This document shows positions 2,821 to 62,800 of a DNA stretch of 64,000 bases, in pieces. Both the position numbers and the translations under genes were made by a program. The stretch covers positions 689,966 through 753,965 of the forward strand of contig NZ_KB235914.1 of the NCBI RefSeq assembly GCF_000332175.1. The letters are read 5' to 3'. The notes below the pieces were generated by a model that saw only the letters and a list, made by a program, of their open reading frames with translations, searched no databases and had not been told where the DNA came from. Source of the DNA: Pseudanabaena sp. PCC 6802 (GTDB taxonomy: Bacteria > Cyanobacteriota > Cyanobacteriia > Pseudanabaenales > Pseudanabaenaceae). Numbering within the stretch: position 1 is the first letter of the stretch; each line of letters starts with the position of its first letter.

Positions 2821-4766
2821 ATGCAAAGAAAGTAGCACCCTATGGTGCGTGGAAATCGCCAATTACGTCGGAGTTAATTGTCTCCACCAGTATCGGTCTC
2901 GGACAGGTGGCTCTCGTCGGCACAGAAATTTACTGGAGTGAAAGTCGTCCATCTGAAGGTGGCAGGAACGCGATCGTCCGCTACGCGCACGGACAAACCG
3001 CAGACGTGCTGCCTCTGCCCTATAATGCCCGTAGTCGCGTCCATGAATACGGTGGTGGTTCGTTCCTGGTTGTAGATGGCAAAGTTTACTTTGCTAATTT
3101 TGCCGACCAGCGCATCTATTGCCAGTGGTTGCAAGTAAATCCCAATAACGAACCCACTGCCTTAACGAGTGCAGGCGCATTTCGCTATGCTGATGGGGTA
3201 TTCGATCGCGTTCGCAATCGCTTGATTTACGTGCGCGAAGAACAGCAAGACCCCAACTGCGAACCGATTAATACTCTAGTTAGTATTAATGTTCTCAATG
3301 GTGAAGATGTGAAAGTTTTGGCGAGGGGTGCGGATTTCTATGCTGCGCCGCAACTCAATGCCGATGGCACCAAACTGGCCTGGTTGAGTTGGAATCATCC
3401 CAATATGCCTTGGGATGGTACGGAATTATGGGTTGCCGATCTAGCAGAGACAGAACTACACAACTGTCAGCTAGTGGCAGGTGGAATGGAGGAATCGATC
3501 TTTCAACCACAATGGTCGCCGCATGGCGTGTTGCATTTTGTCAGCGATCGCAGTGGTTGGTGGAATCTCTATCGCTGGCACGGCGATCGCATCGAGCCGC
3601 TATGCAAGATGGAGGCAGAATTTGGGATGCCGCAGTGGGTATTTGGCATGTCCACCTATGCTTTCCTGTCGAGCGATCGGATTATCTGTGCCTACAATCG
3701 CAATGGCGAATGGCAACTGGCTACCTTAGATACGTCAGGATCTGGACAATCGGTATTAACTCCAATCCCCACACCCTACACGGATATCTCATCGCTGCAA
3801 GCTCATGGCGATCGCGCTGTCTTTATTGCTGGCTCGCCCACGGAACCGACAGCGATCGTGCAACTGGATCTAAACAGCGATCGTATAGAAGTATTGCGCT
3901 CCTCAACGGAATTACAAGTAGATAAAGCATATTTATCCATCCCGCAAACTATTGAATTTCCCACTGAAAACGGTCAGACTGCCTATGCCTTTTTCTATCC
4001 GCCCACCAACGGCGACTTCGTCGCGCCTAACCATGAGAAACCACCTTTACTGGTAAAAAGTCATGGCGGCCCCACGGCAGCCGCATCGAGTTCGTTCAGC
4101 CTCCGTACCCAATATTGGACAAGTAGAGGCTTTGCGATTTTGGATGTGAACTACGGCGGTAGTACTGGTTATGGCCGCGCCTATCGACAACGACTGCATA
4201 ATAACTGGGGCATAGTTGACGTTGACGATTGCGCGAATGGGGCGAAATATCTAGCGGACAGGGGACTGGTAGATGGGAACCGTTTAGCCATCTCAGGTGG
4301 CAGTGCCGGAGGCTATACCACGCTCTGTGCCCTCACGTTTAAGGATATCTTTAAAGCAGGAGCTAGCTACTATGGAGTCAGCGATCTAGAGGCTTTAGCT
4401 AGCGACACTCACAAATTTGAGGCGCGTTATTTGGACGGTCTAATTGGCGCATATCCAGAGAGAAAGGATTTATATGTGGCGCGATCGCCCATCCACTTCA
4501 CCGAGCAACTATCCTGTCCGGTAATCTTCTTTCAGGGACTGGAGGATAGAGTAGTGCCGCCCAATCAAGCTGAGATGATGGTCGATGCCTTGAGAACGAA
4601 GGGATTGCCCGTAGCATACGTGGCATTTGCAGGAGAGCAACATGGTTTTCGCAAAGCCGAAAATATCAAACGCGCTCTTGACGGTGAATTTTATTTCTAC
4701 TCTCGTATTTTCGGCTTTGAACCTGCTGATATTCTGGAACCTGTAGAGATCGATCGTCTTGACTAG
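2811..4766 (+). CDS. S9 family peptidase (acylaminoacyl/dipeptidyl peptidase type)
   Basis: A 651-residue serine peptidase of the prolyl oligopeptidase clan. An N-terminal beta-propeller-like region (about 1-390, with repeats such as [13 protein letters not shown] and FQPQWSPHG) precedes an alpha/beta hydrolase domain. The triad is visible: Ser498 in GGSAGGYT, Asp579 in GLEDRVVPP, His611 in GEQHGF. It should cleave short or acylated peptides in the cytoplasm; no signal peptide is seen. The ATG lies inside the end of guaA (10-base overlap), so the two genes are probably translationally coupled, although no functional link is obvious. Confidence 0.93.
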
Positions 4767-53616: not shown

Positions 53617-54654
53617 GTGATGCATAGGCGATCGCTAACCGTACTCCTGTTAATTCCGACAGGTATTAATGCAGCGATTGGCGGCTATGCTGGCGATGCT
53701 TTGCCAGTGGCACGGGCGATCGCTGCCGTATCCGACACTTTAATTACACATCCGAACGTGTTGAACGGTGCCAGCCTATTTTGGCCGATGCCCAACGTTT
53801 TGTATGTGGAAGGCTATGCTATAGATCGCGTCGCGCAGGGCGAGTGGGGCTTGCGTCCCGTGCATGGCAATCGCATCGGCGTAATTTTAGATCGCGCTAT
53901 CGAACCGGACTTGGAACTGCGCCATCGACAGGCGATCGCAGCAGCACGGGCAACTTTAGGTTTAAATATTAGCGATATTGTCATTACCGATCTCCCGCTG
54001 GGGGTAGAGATCGCTCAGGGGAAATCGGGGGCAACTTGGGGCACGATCGCGCAGCCGGATAGCTTACTGCGCGCAGCATCCAAACTGATATGCGATGCGA
54101 AGGTATCCGCGATCGCCGTAGTGGCTAGATTTCCCGACGATCCCGATAGTTTGGCGCTGCGCAACTATCGTCAGGGTAAAGGAGTTGATGCGCTGGCAGG
54201 GGCTGAAGCTGTCATCAGTCATTCGATTGTGCGGGAATTTGCCATTCCCTGCGCCCACGCCCCCGCCCTGCAACCGTTACCGCTCGATCCAGATATATCG
54301 CCGCGATCGGCAGCGGAGGAGTTGGGGTACACATTTCTGCCGTGCGTATTGGCAGGTCTGAGTCGCGCCCCCCAATTGATTGCGGATCGATCGCAGATAC
54401 GCTCTGGCGATCTCTCAGTTGACGATATTGATGTGGCGATCGCGCCCGCCAGTGCCTGCGGTGGCGCAGGTTTGCTGGTATTGGGAAGATCGTCAACCAC
54501 CCAGCTCATTTTTATCGAAGAGAATACTACGGCTCTAAATGTCTCTCCCGAGGCAATGGGATTAAATGGGATGCGAGTGAGAAATTATTTAGAAGCGATT
54601 GGAGTTCTCGCTGCGATTCGCGCAGGCTTAGAACCTAAGAGTTTAGGTCGTTAG
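53617..54654 (+). CDS. DUF3326 family protein
   Basis: 345 residues. Begins LTVLLLIPTGINAAIGGYAG; further family blocks are LITHPNVLNGASLFWPMPNV, LYVEGYAIDRV, and AVVARFPDD. The C-terminal part has SACGGAGLLVLG. DUF3326 is typical of cyanobacteria and plants; no proven biochemical role. GTG 53617 and ATG 53620 are both possible starts, with GAGG eight or eleven bases away. Its end overlaps the convergent Uma2 gene by 20 bases. Confidence 0.88.
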   Translation: MMHRRSLTVLLLIPTGINAAIGGYAGDALPVARAIAAVSDTLITHPNVLNGASLFWPMPNVLYVEGYAIDRVAQGEWGLRPVHGNRIGVILDRAIEPDLELRHRQAIAAARATLGLNISDIVITDLPLGVEIAQGKSGATWGTIAQPDSLLRAASKLICDAKVSAIAVVARFPDDPDSLALRNYRQGKGVDALAGAEAVISHSIVREFAIPCAHAPALQPLPLDPDISPRSAAEELGYTFLPCVLAGLSRAPQLIADRSQIRSGDLSVDDIDVAIAPASACGGAGLLVLGRSSTTQLIFIEENTTALNVSPEAMGLNGMRVRNYLEAIGVLAAIRAGLEPKSLGR

Positions 54655-55213
54655 TTTGAGGTCGCAACATTTCACGTACGTTCAAATTCACATCTGGGAA
54701 AGCGATCGGGGCAAGCGCGTCGCGATCTGAAAGAACTTCATGAGTTCGATATCCATCTAGATCGGGATCTCGAAATACGTGCAATTGACGGCTATTAATA
54801 TCCAGCACCCAATAATCGCTAATACCTGCCTGCCCGTAGGAGATCGCTTTGACCTGGCAATCTTTGTTGAGCGTCGTATCGGCAACTTCGATTAAAAGGT
54901 AAATGTCTGATGGAATGGGATGGCGATCTTCGTAGTACAGCGGCTCTGGTCTGAGTACGGCAATATCCGGCTCTGGTTCGGAATAGTCGCTCAGTTGCAC
55001 TGGTTCCTGCGAACGGACTAGTACGCGATCGCCCAAGCGGGCTTCTAGCAATTTCCACAAACGAGTAACAGTGGCACAATGAGGGGCACCTTTTGCTGCC
55101 ATTTTAATAATTTGTCCTGCAATCAACTCAACTCGTTCGCTATCGCTGAGAATACCGGCATCAAACATTTGATGGAATTCTTTAACTGTAATTAATCGTA
55201 TATCTGTCAGCAT
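54635..55213 (-). CDS. Uma2 family (DUF820) endonuclease-like protein
   Basis: 192 residues. Nuclease core: Asp in EPEPDIAVLRP, Glu in LLIEVADTTL, Lys in CQVKAISYGQAGISDYWVLD. The N-terminus (TVKEFHQMFDAGILSDSERV) is a common Uma2 start. Convergent and slightly overlapping with the DUF3326 gene. Confidence 0.92.
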   Translation of the reverse strand: MLTDIRLITVKEFHQMFDAGILSDSERVELIAGQIIKMAAKGAPHCATVTRLWKLLEARLGDRVLVRSQEPVQLSDYSEPEPDIAVLRPEPLYYEDRHPIPSDIYLLIEVADTTLNKDCQVKAISYGQAGISDYWVLDINSRQLHVFRDPDLDGYRTHEVLSDRDALAPIAFPDVNLNVREMLRPQTNDLNS

Positions 55214-56477: not shown

Positions 56478-57173
56478 ATGAAAGGTAAACAGGTATTACT
56501 AACAGGTGGGACGGGTGGTTTGGGCACGGGTGTAACCAGGGTATTACTAGCACGAGAGGCTAAGATTACGATTCCCTACGTGAATCTAGCGGAGGTGGAG
56601 CGCCTGAAACAAAGCTTGTCTGCTTCGGAGTTCGAGCAATTACGGTTGGTAGCAACAGATCTGACTGACGAGCGCGAAATTGCTCAGCTAGTCGATGACA
56701 TGGGGCACTTGGACGTACTTATTCACCTTGTGGGTGGTTTTGCCATGGGCAAGACCCACGAATTTAGCTTTGCCGACTGGAAGCAGCAACTCGACCTGAA
56801 CCTGAATACTACGTTCCTGACCTGCAAGCACAGCTTGCGCAAGATGCTGGAGCATAACTACGGTCGGATCGTGACGGTTGGGTCTCGCGGGGCGGTACAG
56901 CCTGCCGGACAGCTAGCTGCCTATTGCGCTGCCAAAGCAGGTGTGGTGGCTCTGACACAGGCGATCGCCGATGAAACCAAAGGTACAAATATTACCGCCA
57001 ACGTGGTTTTGCCCAGCGTCATCGATACACCTATGAATCGGCGGGCCATGGGTGAAGCTAATGCCGATCTTTGGGTTAAGCCGGAGTCGTTGGGGCAAGT
57101 AATTTGCTTTCTTGCCTCCGAAGCCGCCAAGGATATACGGGGGGCAGCCATTCCCGTGTTTGGCAGCGTTTAA
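56478..57173 (+). CDS. SDR family NAD(P)-dependent oxidoreductase
   Basis: 231 residues from ATG 56478, with GGAG six bases upstream; the upstream TTG is not needed. Classical SDR: cofactor motif LLTGGTGGLGTGV, LDVLIHLVGGF (NNAG equivalent), catalytic Ser in VTVGSRGAV and Tyr-x3-Lys in AAYCAAKAG. C-terminal VLPSVIDTPMNRRAM. The substrate is unknown. Convergent with a Uma2 gene, four-base overlap. Confidence 0.93.
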   Translation: MKGKQVLLTGGTGGLGTGVTRVLLAREAKITIPYVNLAEVERLKQSLSASEFEQLRLVATDLTDEREIAQLVDDMGHLDVLIHLVGGFAMGKTHEFSFADWKQQLDLNLNTTFLTCKHSLRKMLEHNYGRIVTVGSRGAVQPAGQLAAYCAAKAGVVALTQAIADETKGTNITANVVLPSVIDTPMNRRAMGEANADLWVKPESLGQVICFLASEAAKDIRGAAIPVFGSV

Positions 57174-57904
57174 ACCGCATCAGGATCGATTCCTAGTGCC
57201 AGCAGGCGATCGCGCAAACGTTGTGCTTCTTGCTCTGCCGCTTCAGCGCGTTGACGCTCTTGCTCGATAATTTGTTTTTGCGCTTGCCATGCCTCAGACA
57301 ATTCGCTAGGAATCAGTAACTTTTCACCTGTATCTTGTCGATAAAACCCGATCGAACCGTCCTCCACTTCTAGTCGCAAACCCAATACTTGACTGGATTT
57401 GTCGGCGATCGCGACGTAAACGGGATCTAGATCTGGATCGGTTTCTTGCAATCGGTAGCCGCGCAACTGTTCGGCGATCCATTCGCCTTTGGGGTCAAAC
57501 AGCCAATATTCCCGAACGCCGATGCTTTCATACAGCATCTTTTTGTGGTCTCGATCTTGGGTTTGCGTCCCGGCTGATGTCATCTCAAAAATGACGCTGG
57601 GTACTTTTCCTGTTTCCCAAATTTTGTAGTTGTCGTAGGGAATTTGCGGGATCTCAAAAATCACCATTACGTCGGGGGCAACGCGCAGGCGCGGGAAACC
57701 CTGGGCGTAGTACAAAAACTGGTCGGCAAGCACGACGGGGGATTTTTCGGGGAAAGCAGCCAGATAATTGCGCAGCACGGCAACGGTGGTAATAATGGCA
57801 TCGGCATGCATGGAGGTTTCTGCCAAGGGTTCACCATCCTCAGAAGGGTAAAAAATGTCTGGTTCGGATTGCTGCGATCGCGTGCTTTCAGCGGCTAGAG
57901 TCAT
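57170..57904 (-). CDS. Uma2 family endonuclease-like protein with C-terminal coiled coil
   Basis: 244 residues from ATG 57904. Nuclease core: Asp in VAPDVMVIFE, Glu in SVIFEMTSAG, Lys in HKKMLYESIGVREYWLFD. A C-terminal coiled coil of Glu/Gln/Arg repeats (QKQIIEQERQRAEAAEQEAQ, RLRDRLLALGIDPD) is a known extension in cyanobacterial Uma2 proteins. Last gene of the minus-strand run with the two ATPases; 118 bases downstream of the STAND-FGE gene. Confidence 0.93.
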   Translation of the reverse strand: MTLAAESTRSQQSEPDIFYPSEDGEPLAETSMHADAIITTVAVLRNYLAAFPEKSPVVLADQFLYYAQGFPRLRVAPDVMVIFEIPQIPYDNYKIWETGKVPSVIFEMTSAGTQTQDRDHKKMLYESIGVREYWLFDPKGEWIAEQLRGYRLQETDPDLDPVYVAIADKSSQVLGLRLEVEDGSIGFYRQDTGEKLLIPSELSEAWQAQKQIIEQERQRAEAAEQEAQRLRDRLLALGIDPDAV

Positions 57905-58022
57905 GACTTTGGCGGATGACAACGTGTATTTATTGTATCGTCAAAAAAATGCGATCGCCTGCGCCGAATAGGGGAGTTTAAAGGAGAAAGAGTAGAAGGT
58001 AAAAGCGCAAAAGTGTAAAGGT

Positions 58023-60776
58023 CTACAAGAGTTCTCGGGCGGAACAGACAACTCGAAAACCGATATCGTAGCTGCAGTAGCCGGCATAGTCGTTGACGCG
58101 ATACGCAGAGCGACAGAAACCAGGATAGTAGTTCCACGAACCGCCGCGCAGCGAATGTGAGGTTCTATTAGGTTCAATCCACGCACTGCCATCGATCGGC
58201 GCTCCCTGATAATTAGCCTTCCAAGTATCCGCACACCGTTCCCAGACATTGCCGTGCATATCGTACATTCCAAAAGCATTCGCTACTTGAAAGCTTCCTA
58301 CAACCGTAGTCTCTTGGCGATAGATGCCTTTTGGTGCCTTTCCATAGGAATGGTTAGCATTGTAATTAGCTATTTCTGGCGATATCGTTTCGCCAAAGTG
58401 GAAAGGTGTAGTCGTCCCTGCCCGACAGGCATATTCCCATTCTGCTTCGCTCGGCAAGCGATATTCCCGTCCCGTTCGTTGCGATAGCTTCTCGCAAAAT
58501 GCTACGGCATCGTTCCAAGAGATACTCTCTACCGGACGATTCTCCCCTTTAAAATGGGAAGGATTCTTTCCCACGATCGCTTGATATTGTGCCTGCGTCA
58601 CGGGGAATTTTCCCATCCAAAATGGATCGATTTGAACTCGGTGCTGAGGGCGTTCGCTATCTTGCTCTTGGCTTCCTGCTTCGGCTCTGGGAGCACCCAT
58701 AAGAAATTCACCACCGGGTATAGACATCATATGGAGACTGACACCATTACCTAAATCCTCGAAGAAGGATTTAGCATTGCCCATTTCGCGCCGAACAATT
58801 TTCCCTTGCGAATCTACATTGACAATATCAAACGTGACAATCTGTATTTTAGGCAAGCCTTCATGGATGTTGTCAAGAATTTCTCTTCCCGCGATCGCGG
58901 CTTGTTTTGTCTCTATTCGCGACTCAATTTCAGCGACATCTTCCGCTGCTAGTCCGAGAACTCGTTGCAGTTCTAGTAAATCCTCTCGCAGTTCACCACT
59001 GAGCGGATATTCGTACTGGATCGCCTCGCGAAATGCCTGTTCGTACTCACGCAGTTGGTAATCTCGATCTGTTTTCAGAATCTCTCGCTCGATCGCTTTG
59101 GCTTCTTCGGGCGATAATCCCAACTCTTCCCGTTGCTTTTCTAACACCCGCCTTCCTACGGGCGAAATTTTGCTGCCACGACTGGCAAAGCGCTCTACCG
59201 CTTCTCGATAAAGACTGCGTAAAGACTCTCTCTGACTCTCGATTTGCTGCGTTACCTGGTGCTCGATCCTGGCGGCATCTGCTAAGTCCAAACCGAGTTC
59301 CTGCCGCAGACTCATAGACTTATGTGCCGCAATCGCAGGCGAATAGGAACCTTGCGTCAGTAATTCCGCAAAACGAAGCTGGTATTGCTGTAACTGAAGG
59401 GCGCGATCGCGATGTTCCTTTGCTTTGAGAGGGTTGACTAAATAAGCGCGATCGAATAGCTCTACAGCGCGATCGATCTGGTACTCTTCCAAGTAGGCTT
59501 CAGCCAGATCGAACATAGCGCTAAAATGATTGGGATTAGCTGACAAAACGCTCTCGTACAAAGGTATTGCCCGATCTGGAGTACCATGCTGTCTCGCCTG
59601 AGTTGCCTCCTCGTACAATCGTTTAGCTTCTAAGTCAACTTCTTCTAATTCCTCAATTCCTCTACGTAAAGGATAGCGTTGGACTAGCCACCGCCTCACC
59701 AGTTCTACTTCTACCCTGTATCTGGGAATCTCAGTACGATCGACTTCTTGGATGTAACCACCAGACACGAGGCGATCGCCTGCCATGCGTAGTGATTCTG
59801 TCATCGCGACACCGTGGGACTCTAGCAATGTTACGGGATCTGAGTCCTGAACTTGAGACTCGGCAACAGCATAGAAAAACACGCGATCGCTAATGTGCAA
59901 TCCATCTCGAAACCAGGCCAGCCCACCTTCACCTAGCTCGATCGCGTCATCAACTGCATCGCGAACGTCCTCAGCCGTTACGACTTCTCTTTCTTCAGCG
60001 CGAGCGCGGTTAAAGACGGCAGCACACATCACTTGGGTAAAGTAAGGATGTCCAGATGTAAGTGCTAAGATCGCTTGAATGGCATCGGGTTCGTAGGTCA
60101 AAATTCCCTTGACGGGTTCGACGATCAGCCGCGTGGCACTGGTCCGATCGAGCAATCCAATTCTTTGATTGGGCGCTCTGCGAAATAGGTGAAGCAATTT
60201 ATCTAAATCTTCTGGCTGACGACCGATTACAGGAATGACAAATAAATCTTGGTATCGTTCTAAAAGCTCCTGCAAATGTGGAAAAAAATGCTCTACCGCT
60301 GCGTCAGGTTGGTAATTATTGAGAACGTCAAATTCGTCGAGCAATAATACAAGAGGTTTGCCTGCAAGAAGTTCAGAGATTCGTGGGAGAAAATCATCCG
60401 CAAAAATATTGTTGTTCGTCGCGATCTGGGATAGCATTTCCCCAGCAGCGTCCCTTGGCAACTCAGTCACATCCATGAGTCGATCCAGGATTTTTGTCGC
60501 CAGATTTTGCAATACCCGCTCTAAAGGTAACTTTGCTTTATCTTGCAGATCGAAGAGAACGAAAACAAATTCACCTTTGCCGACAAAATTAGGGATTTGA
60601 GCCAGCACGGACGATTTGCCAATCCGCCGCTGACCGTGTAGCAAAATTACTTGCTGGTGGTTTTCCAGTTGATCGTGGATAAACTCAAACAGCGATTCCC
60701 GCCCAAAAAATAACTCGGGTTCGGCGATCGGGCGACCGACAATGTAAGGATTTCTCAGTCTAGTAGCTGGATTCAT
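58023..60776 (-). CDS. STAND-like ATPase with TPRs and C-terminal FGE/C-type-lectin domain, candidate DGR target
   Basis: 917 residues. N-terminal ATPase: RNPYIVGRPIAEPELFFGRE, Walker A LLHGQRRIGKSS (48-56), Walker B PLVLLLDEFDVL. TPR-like helices about 385-480 (PDRAIPLYESVLSANPNHFS), a long helical region to about 660, then a formylglycine-generating-enzyme (SUMF1) fold from about 680: IPGGEFLMGAP, NRPVESISWNDAVAFCEKLS, RLPSEAEWEYACRAG, MHGNVWE. Near the end RGGSWNYYPGFCRSAYR lacks the first of the two catalytic FGE cysteines, so ligand binding and not catalysis is expected. The last 35 codons have DGR-variable-region features. Twelve bases follow the AAA partner gene. Confidence 0.92.
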   Translation of the reverse strand: MNPATRLRNPYIVGRPIAEPELFFGRESLFEFIHDQLENHQQVILLHGQRRIGKSSVLAQIPNFVGKGEFVFVLFDLQDKAKLPLERVLQNLATKILDRLMDVTELPRDAAGEMLSQIATNNNIFADDFLPRISELLAGKPLVLLLDEFDVLNNYQPDAAVEHFFPHLQELLERYQDLFVIPVIGRQPEDLDKLLHLFRRAPNQRIGLLDRTSATRLIVEPVKGILTYEPDAIQAILALTSGHPYFTQVMCAAVFNRARAEEREVVTAEDVRDAVDDAIELGEGGLAWFRDGLHISDRVFFYAVAESQVQDSDPVTLLESHGVAMTESLRMAGDRLVSGGYIQEVDRTEIPRYRVEVELVRRWLVQRYPLRRGIEELEEVDLEAKRLYEEATQARQHGTPDRAIPLYESVLSANPNHFSAMFDLAEAYLEEYQIDRAVELFDRAYLVNPLKAKEHRDRALQLQQYQLRFAELLTQGSYSPAIAAHKSMSLRQELGLDLADAARIEHQVTQQIESQRESLRSLYREAVERFASRGSKISPVGRRVLEKQREELGLSPEEAKAIEREILKTDRDYQLREYEQAFREAIQYEYPLSGELREDLLELQRVLGLAAEDVAEIESRIETKQAAIAGREILDNIHEGLPKIQIVTFDIVNVDSQGKIVRREMGNAKSFFEDLGNGVSLHMMSIPGGEFLMGAPRAEAGSQEQDSERPQHRVQIDPFWMGKFPVTQAQYQAIVGKNPSHFKGENRPVESISWNDAVAFCEKLSQRTGREYRLPSEAEWEYACRAGTTTPFHFGETISPEIANYNANHSYGKAPKGIYRQETTVVGSFQVANAFGMYDMHGNVWERCADTWKANYQGAPIDGSAWIEPNRTSHSLRGGSWNYYPGFCRSAYRVNDYAGYCSYDIGFRVVCSARELL
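58045..58150 (-). other. Candidate DGR variable region in the lectin domain
   Basis: Codons for N-Y-Y, F, Y, V-N-D-Y and Y-C-S-Y-D are all NNC or NNT, each reachable from AAC or AAT by changing only adenines. They alternate with fixed CRSA, AG and IGFRVV. This is the pattern of a variable repeat copied from a template with adenine mutagenesis. No template repeat or reverse transcriptase lies in the window. Confidence 0.55.
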
Positions 60777-60788
60777 ACTCCTACAGTC

Positions 60789-62072
60789 CTAAGTTTGGAT
60801 CGCTCCCTTGGGAATTGCTGCCAAAAGCTTGCCAACCCATTCCAAAATAGACGGAACCTTATCTCTATTCTGCCACAGCCATTGAATCGATCTGGTTAAT
60901 TGTTCTGCTTGCTTATGACTCATGAGGTTGAGAAATATTCTCTGGCGATCTTGCAAATCCTTATCGTTACTATTCAAAATCTTTTTGACTACCCACCATT
61001 CCATAATCGATGAGGCAAAACTATAGGAGGCAATATCTTCCTTTAAGGTTTGCTGAAGGATTCCACGCTCCACCAGCACTTTTAATTCGATTTCCTTCTG
61101 ACTGAAAATATTTTTAATATTTCCCAGATCGAAATTTTTGTTCGGCAGCTTCCCCTGCAGTTCTGTCAAAGCCACCAGCATCATCAAACTTTGCTCTAGA
61201 GGAGTGGATAAATCCCAAATCGCTTCAAAAATCTGGAGTGTGGAACCCTGGAAATCATTGGCAAAAGCAGTAGCATCGAGTCTGCCACCCTCTCTCAGCT
61301 TTTCGTATAGTAAGTACCCTGCATTTTGCAATAGCGTGGGATTACCACCCGCCATTTCGCGAATACCTTCCTGGATCGCAGGCGTAATTGGCATCCCTGC
61401 AAACAAAGCCGTGACTTCGCTTTCAGTCAAAGGCTTGAGTTGGCGAAACAGGTAATGGTTGTACCAGGGCGATTTGTCGGGCGTAAGCTTGGGCGATATG
61501 TCGCTAAGTCGTCTCGAAGAAGTCACGAGCATCGAGAGATACTGCCGCTCCTCAGCTAACGAGGCAATGCTGCGACACTCGCTCAAAAATGCTTCTACGT
61601 CTTCTTCAGTATGAGTAGGGTTAGAACGCAGCGCCGTATCGTAATCATCTGCCAGCAGCACCAAATACCTGTTGCATTTTCCTAACTCCCGCAATAAAGC
61701 CAGCACATCATCAGATGTATTACCCTCTTTTTGCAACAAAGTTTCTAAACAGGTTTGTAGCGTTACCTCACCATTTAACTGAGTTTGGATCGATCGCAAA
61801 ACAGTACGCCAAAATTTAGCTGCTGTAAATGGTTCTAGCGCGAGACAGTTAACCCTAGCGATCGCCGCGATCGAGATATTATGTCCCCGTAAATGCCAAG
61901 CTTCAGGCGATATCACATACTTGAGCAAAGAGGACTTGCCCATCCCTGTGCCGCCCCAAATCGCCAGATGGCTGCGGCTAAAAATTTGATCGAAAGCTGT
62001 TTCGACCTCAGACTTGCGCCCTATAAATCGGTCTAGAGCTACTGGTTTACCAACGGTAAAGGGATTGGTCAT
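60789..62072 (-). CDS. AAA/STAND-type ATPase, partner of the FGE-domain ATPase
   Basis: 427 residues. The opening NPFTVGKPVALDRFIGRKSE parallels the start of the neighbouring STAND-FGE protein (NPYIVGRP...FGRES). Walker A AIWGGTGMGKSSLLKY (about 36-51), Walker B YLVLLADDYDTAL, sensor-like LVTSSRRLS; then a helical/winged-helix C-terminal part (GNPTLLQNAGYLLYEKL, ASSIMEWWVVKKI). It has no recognisable effector. Twelve bases separate it from the next gene, so the two are most probably one operon and may form a heteromeric machine. Confidence 0.85.
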   Translation of the reverse strand: MTNPFTVGKPVALDRFIGRKSEVETAFDQIFSRSHLAIWGGTGMGKSSLLKYVISPEAWHLRGHNISIAAIARVNCLALEPFTAAKFWRTVLRSIQTQLNGEVTLQTCLETLLQKEGNTSDDVLALLRELGKCNRYLVLLADDYDTALRSNPTHTEEDVEAFLSECRSIASLAEERQYLSMLVTSSRRLSDISPKLTPDKSPWYNHYLFRQLKPLTESEVTALFAGMPITPAIQEGIREMAGGNPTLLQNAGYLLYEKLREGGRLDATAFANDFQGSTLQIFEAIWDLSTPLEQSLMMLVALTELQGKLPNKNFDLGNIKNIFSQKEIELKVLVERGILQQTLKEDIASYSFASSIMEWWVVKKILNSNDKDLQDRQRIFLNLMSHKQAEQLTRSIQWLWQNRDKVPSILEWVGKLLAAIPKGAIQT

Positions 62073-62152: not shown

Positions 62153-62800
62153 TCATTCAAGCTGTTCGCGAACCCAATGCAAAAATTCCCTTCTTACTGC
62201 ACTCATGGGTATTTCATTACTGCGAGCCAAACACTGTGAGATGCGATCGGCGATCGGCAAATTAGGGAATAGCAGGCTATGCGGCAATGTAACGTACTTG
62301 CCATCCTGCCAAACACTAATTGTTAACTTGCCATCTTTGTAGCGCCAAATCTCGGCAACACCCAGGGCTTCATAGGCGCTTATCTGAGTATTGGAAGTGA
62401 GATCGACCTCTATTACCAGATCGGGCGGTGGATCGATGTTTAGATCGAGCCGTTTTTTGCCGATCGCCGCCGCGTAGTTTTTGATGTAAAAGCAGTCATC
62501 CGGCTCGATGCCTGCTTTCATCATTTGTTTCTTAAAGGTGGAAGAACCCAGTGATTCCCACTCTTGCCCCAATTCGTCAAGCAAAATTTTGAGCAGATCG
62601 CCAATAATCACCTTAGCTCGCTCGTGTTCTGGTAGTGGCATCCGTATCTCTAGTGTTTCACCATAATAAGCAATGCGGGCGGCGCGGCGATCGCCTAATT
62701 CCTCTAGAATCTCTTCAAATTCCGACCATGTGATGTCGTGCAGGACGGCGCGCTGCCCTGGCAGCACTTCAATTTGACTGATTCGCACCTGCACGACCAT
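62153..62800 (-). CDS. Uma2 family endonuclease-like protein
   Basis: 215 residues. LHDITWSEFEEILEELGDRR start; core Asp in DPPPDLVIEVDLTSN, Glu in VIEVD, and AYEALGVAEIWRYKDGKL. The Lys normally found before the final helix is not obvious (NTQISAYEALG), so activity may be reduced. It is first of the four-gene minus-strand run (Uma2, AAA, STAND-FGE, Uma2), 80 bases upstream of the AAA gene and 14 bases after the UDP-glucose dehydrogenase gene. Confidence 0.9.
   Translation of the reverse strand: MVVQVRISQIEVLPGQRAVLHDITWSEFEEILEELGDRRAARIAYYGETLEIRMPLPEHERAKVIIGDLLKILLDELGQEWESLGSSTFKKQMMKAGIEPDDCFYIKNYAAAIGKKRLDLNIDPPPDLVIEVDLTSNTQISAYEALGVAEIWRYKDGKLTISVWQDGKYVTLPHSLLFPNLPIADRISQCLARSNEIPMSAVRREFLHWVREQLE

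Follow-up and report, generated by a model that had tools for sequence, protein, structure and literature searches.

The gene at 58023..60776 on the (-) strand of the stretch analysed here raises a question, namely whether its 3' end was written by a diversity-generating retroelement (DGR) and, if so, whether it is still being rewritten by one. The stretch (G000:C5:689966-753965, 64,000 nucleotides, hereafter the window) comes from the genome of Pseudanabaena sp. PCC 6802, which measures 5.62 Mb and is available as six contigs with 99.7% completeness. The gene is an intact ORF coding for a 917-aa protein that combines a STAND-type AAA ATPase, TPR repeats and an FGE domain with the C-type-lectin fold; the corresponding Pfam domains are AAA_16 (residues 23-181), TPR_19 (395-444) and FGE-sulfatase (682-910). 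The assignment to the STAND NTPases is based on the AAA_16 score (41.4 bits, cut-off 32.6) together with TPR_19; nSTAND1 scored 24.2 bits, under its 27.1 cut-off. At 60789..62072 (-), 12 bp upstream, a second AAA/STAND-like ATPase is encoded, with AAA_22 above cut-off and AAA_16 and nSTAND1 slightly under it, which is a probable operon partner. A scan of genome contigs gave no cyanobacterial orthologue of the window protein, the matches being mostly FGE proteins of Pseudomonas and planctomycetes. Three genes of the window (54635-55213, 57170-57922 and 62153-62800) look Uma2-type by eye, and one such gene sits directly downstream of the FGE gene; this family is common in cyanobacteria. The octamer GCGATCGC is present in 104 copies in the window, an abundance typical of cyanobacteria.

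The last ~32 codons of the gene resemble a DGR variable region (VR). The protein ends with ...LRGGSW NYY PGF CRSAY R VNDY AG YCSYD IGFRVVCSARELL* (tail sequence LRGGSWNYYPGFCRSAYRVNDYAGYCSYDIGFRVVCSARELL), and the VR-like core, GGSW...GFRV, covers 96 nt at 58050..58145 (-), where a third-base pattern and a concentration of template mismatches at A were observed. When the codons were read directly, all those named as variable in the initial annotation were NNC or NNT, and the fixed blocks were as it had claimed. As main evidence for a VR this property was rejected: given the residues of the window protein its probability is 0.34, and NNY codons alone are weak evidence, since codons of no other kind exist for N, Y, D, F and C. 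The choice between C and T was also considered. At 9 of the 10 columns that are AAC or AAT in 24 cyanobacterial templates the window gene repeats the consensus third base (P = 0.0055 in a synonymous-codon simulation), as compared to 2, 3, 5 and 6 of 10 in four FGE paralogues of the same genome and 0-6 of 10 in non-DGR FGE tails. The codon pattern is derivable from AAY template codons, and none of the variable sites holds K, E, Q, M or W. The replacement of the first FGE active-site cysteine, also pointed out in the annotation, is confirmed (GGSW-NY vs. GGSY-LC). The window protein does not have the two active-site cysteines of a catalytic formylglycine-generating enzyme, both of which are kept by another FGE of the same genome (KGGSYLCSPEYC, L047, C5:2723234).

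The sequences downstream of the core were compared with those of 145 FGE tails from cyanobacterial loci, which yielded 58 template/VR pairs selected at no more than 3 non-A mismatches (most had none); the counts of motif, tract and hairpin that follow include related sequences and are thus not independent. Templates carry the octamer [GC]AG[T/C]ACTC (24/24 of those with the motif), and the base that tells template from target is G (27) or A (3) in 30/31 cognate VRs, the sole exception, L220, being template-like by its downstream sequence. The window gene has an IMH-like motif of the VR class (G/A), GAGAACTC, at 58029..58036 (-), which differs from the template IMH*; this VR-type 8-mer is absent from the non-DGR FGE genes listed. 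The motif is found 13 nt past the core, one base short of the usual offset of 14, so that the reading frame of the last codons changes (SARELL vs. SAPRTL), with the DNA motif kept. Directly past the stop codon, at 57966..58022 (-), there is a pyrimidine-rich tract whose best 40 nt are 85% C+T on the coding strand; in the window as a whole, only 0.07% of 40-mers reach 0.80. Downstream tracts of at least 80% C+T were found for 36/45 cognate VRs, but for none of 32 templates and none of 11 non-DGR FGE genes. A literature search gave no pyrimidine tract at DGR targets among the matches listed, which does not prove its absence. Both features, that is the single 8-mer base that splits template (T/C) from target (G/A) and the pyrimidine tract past targets, were seen in many cyanobacterial families (L170-L265).

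The third element is a GC hairpin with a loop of 3-4 nt. It was seen after 28/44 VRs (shuffled mean for VRs 0.8) and is missing from the other 16 genuine VRs; the corresponding counts are 2/32 for templates and 2/11 for non-DGR genes. All three VRs that belong to the genome's own DGR templates (C5:192148, C5:194913 and C1:187894) have it, as GGCGC-GTTA/GAA-GCGCC, at offsets of 79, 79 and 84 nt. After the window gene only a remnant, GGCGCAGGCGATCGC, is present at 57951..57965 (-); its GGCGC has an offset of 84 nt, equal to that of the VR on contig C1, and no stem of at least 5 bp with a 3-4 nt loop was found after the window VR. In BPP-1 the hairpin strongly aids homing (PMC3240598), and in the reconstituted BPP-1 system it is not strictly required (PMC12875486). 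VR hairpins may act as terminators too.

According to the initial annotation, the gene would be served in trans by a DGR located elsewhere, and a DGR reverse transcriptase (RT) was indeed found, along with bAvd and templates. Among 13 RVT_1 matches in the genome, the protein encoded at C5:193346 combines YVDD with a DGR-type SQ motif, LPIGNLTSQ; of the solved structures, the reverse transcriptase 8ub7 matches it best (PDB, E 7.5e-53). The other full-length matches carry QG motifs like those of group II introns or retrons; spread over three contigs are five reverse transcriptases of group II intron type (L001-L005), each of 446 aa and nearly identical to one another. There is one DGR core only, 554 kb from the window gene, with one SQ-type RT, a template, two VRs and, directly upstream of the RT, the sole bAvd of the genome. 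L040 4539-9033 (G000:C5:190538-195032) is a complete DGR, in which template, bAvd and RT lie between two FGE targets; a gene at 3328-4542 of the same locus, without a Pfam match, looks caspase/CHAT-like by eye. The template TR1 (C5:192484) serves these two FGE genes: VR1 differs from it at 15/32 adenines and 0/64 other positions, VR2 at 13/32 and 1/64, with one codon inserted. A second template, TR2 (C1:187535), is located on an 882-kb contig, the second replicon, where it adjoins a caspase-FGE target with no RT nearby (L041 9355-9480 and 8996-9120 in reverse-complement coordinates; G000:C1:187512-187998); this VR differs from TR2 at 17/26 adenines and 1/70 other positions. Since TR1 and TR2 have a downstream spacer sequence in common, the single RT on C5 probably serves both, acting on the template and target of C1 in trans.

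The window gene is cognate to neither template. Mismatches to TR1 were counted at 18/32 adenines and 12/64 other positions, and those to TR2 at 14/26 and 20/70, as compared to 0-1 non-adenine mismatches between the own VRs and their cognate templates. The ~100-bp template with adenine-only mismatches that the annotation proposed to look for was not found in the genome, and its proposal that the tail originated by adenine mutation holds for the AAY third-base pattern, kept at 9/10 columns, and not for adenine-only change from a resident template. In fact, a search of the genome by DNA, template-like protein and 3' pattern returned two templates only; of the components of an active system, RT and bAvd are present and a cognate template is absent. 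The non-A differences from TR1 are mostly silent third positions, many of them within the CRSA block, where retrohoming from TR1 would overwrite them. For Thiohalocapsa, trans action was judged by a perfect match at all non-adenine sites (PMC10907252), and the window gene does not show such a match. Outside this genome, the nearest templates are those of G176 (14/29 A vs. 8/67 non-A mismatches, Fisher p 3e-4) and G159 (14/28 A, 9/68 non-A). No cognate template appeared among the matches listed from 390 sampled genomes of the class, 38 of the family and 11 chosen ones, and a query with the inferred template on the 38 family and 11 chosen genomes gave nothing nearer than the P-type templates of G159, G176 and G329.

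The explanation that best accounts for these observations, to which we assign a probability of about 0.74, is that the tail is an orphan VR, whose template was lost or left in a donor, and that it is now probably frozen. An unlikely alternative is that the gene is still the active target of a cognate template missing from the assembly, for instance on a small plasmid or in a collapsed repeat. The VR core is stop-free and keeps the third-base pattern of templates, the same family has P-type templates (G029, L205), and the ~0.3% of the genome absent from the assembly could hold one; this has to be set against the completeness of the assembly (99.7%, 6 contigs), the recovery of only two templates by sensitive searches at the protein, DNA and pattern level, and a broken hairpin. 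It is also quite improbable that the resident DGR (RT on C5, TR1 or TR2) still rewrites the window gene in trans. The genome has an intact RT, an intact bAvd and two intact templates, the lack of an RT near TR2 on C1 makes it plausible that the single RT works in trans, and the ~69-70% identity to TR1 passes the 50% rule of PMC7517822. However, the 12/64 and 20/70 non-adenine mismatches contrast with 0-1 in served VRs, the 3' ends of window gene and templates are unlike in length and sequence, and the hairpin is broken. Of the claim of service in trans, what stands is that the genome carries a DGR and that the tail is of VR type; the link between the two is not supported, neither template being cognate and the 3' hairpin being disrupted. 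Finally, a plain FGE/lectin tail without any DGR history, with a likeness due to common descent of FGEs and residue choice, would agree with the NNY codons expected from the residues (P 0.34) and with the CRSA and GFR blocks common to FGE paralogues, but is hardly probable, because non-DGR FGE tails have neither the third-base pattern (0-6/10) nor the 8-mer and pyrimidine tract, and their non-A mismatch to templates is 29-38%, as compared to 12% here.

With regard to the origin of the orphan VR, in a quick tree of the FGE body (VR excluded) the window gene groups weakly with FGE proteins of other cyanobacterial families (f11, f13 and f24; SH-aLRT 89), and the resident DGR targets are placed among sequences from their own family. 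On this tree, import or an origin in a DGR lineage now lost is weakly favoured over recent duplication from resident targets. Since neither template matches it, the window protein looks like a retired or imported target. A cyanobacterial DGR would have acted on a STAND ATPase and diversified its C-terminal lectin/FGE domain, adenine-mutated template cDNA replacing the last ~100 bp of a gene marked as target by the 3' [GC]AG[G/A]ACTC motif, the pyrimidine tract and the hairpin. The source template would lie outside this genome, either because it was lost or because it did not accompany the gene when this arrived or was duplicated. Erosion of the target appears to have begun, with the hairpin broken, the motif reading GAGAACTC and the last codons frame-shifted by one base, so that the present sequence would most likely be a frozen variant, possibly serving a cytosolic NTPase sensor as an unchanging surface for binding. 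Past retrohoming, present inactivity and ligand sensing are what we infer for this gene, the sensor function by analogy with the STAND-FGE targets of PMC10907252.

A template-less gene with scars of diversification would be evidence that a hypermutated receptor, when it has become useful, can be fixed and passed on. It is also a warning about the usual 50%-identity rule, under which the remote targets include genes beyond the reach of every template in the genome. We tentatively propose, at somewhat under even odds, that cyanobacterial DGR targets share a written address, made of a frame-independent 8-mer whose central base tells template (T/C) from target (G/A), followed by a ~40-nt pyrimidine tract and then a short GC hairpin, and that targets can outlast their template as frozen receptors, which this address would reveal, the window gene being one of them. 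With the shared elements, orphan VR genes could be searched for, and an explanation of how cyanobacterial DGRs discriminate target from template becomes open to testing.

Among known systems, DGR targets with the RT elsewhere in the genome are likewise multidomain genes whose 3' end holds a VR in a C-terminal lectin/FGE domain, but the window VR is cognate to neither template at non-adenine sites. TvpA of Treponema denticola (PDB 2y3c) is a variable protein with the same FGE-like C-type-lectin fold (sequence match E 2e-24), although it has no NTPase and belongs to another phylum. A precedent for a VR orphaned from its template is provided by T. denticola SP32, where a leftover VR resembles a type of template now missing from that strain (PMC4891356); the matching template of SP32 is known from other isolates, whereas none was found for the window gene in the genomes sampled. 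Similar in architecture are the STAND NTPase-FGE targets of Thiohalocapsa PB-PSB1 and clade 5D (Dore 2024, PMC10907252), in which an NTPase is likewise joined to a C-terminal FGE with a VR; the window gene differs from them in having a TPR linker, no recognised effector or adaptor domain and no cognate template. Such DGR-diversified STAND-FGE proteins have been proposed as antigen sensors of multicellular bacteria (PMC10907252). STAND-FGE targets and leftover VRs are thus already known, and less familiar are the rule by which the 3' motif separates template from target and the pyrimidine tract.
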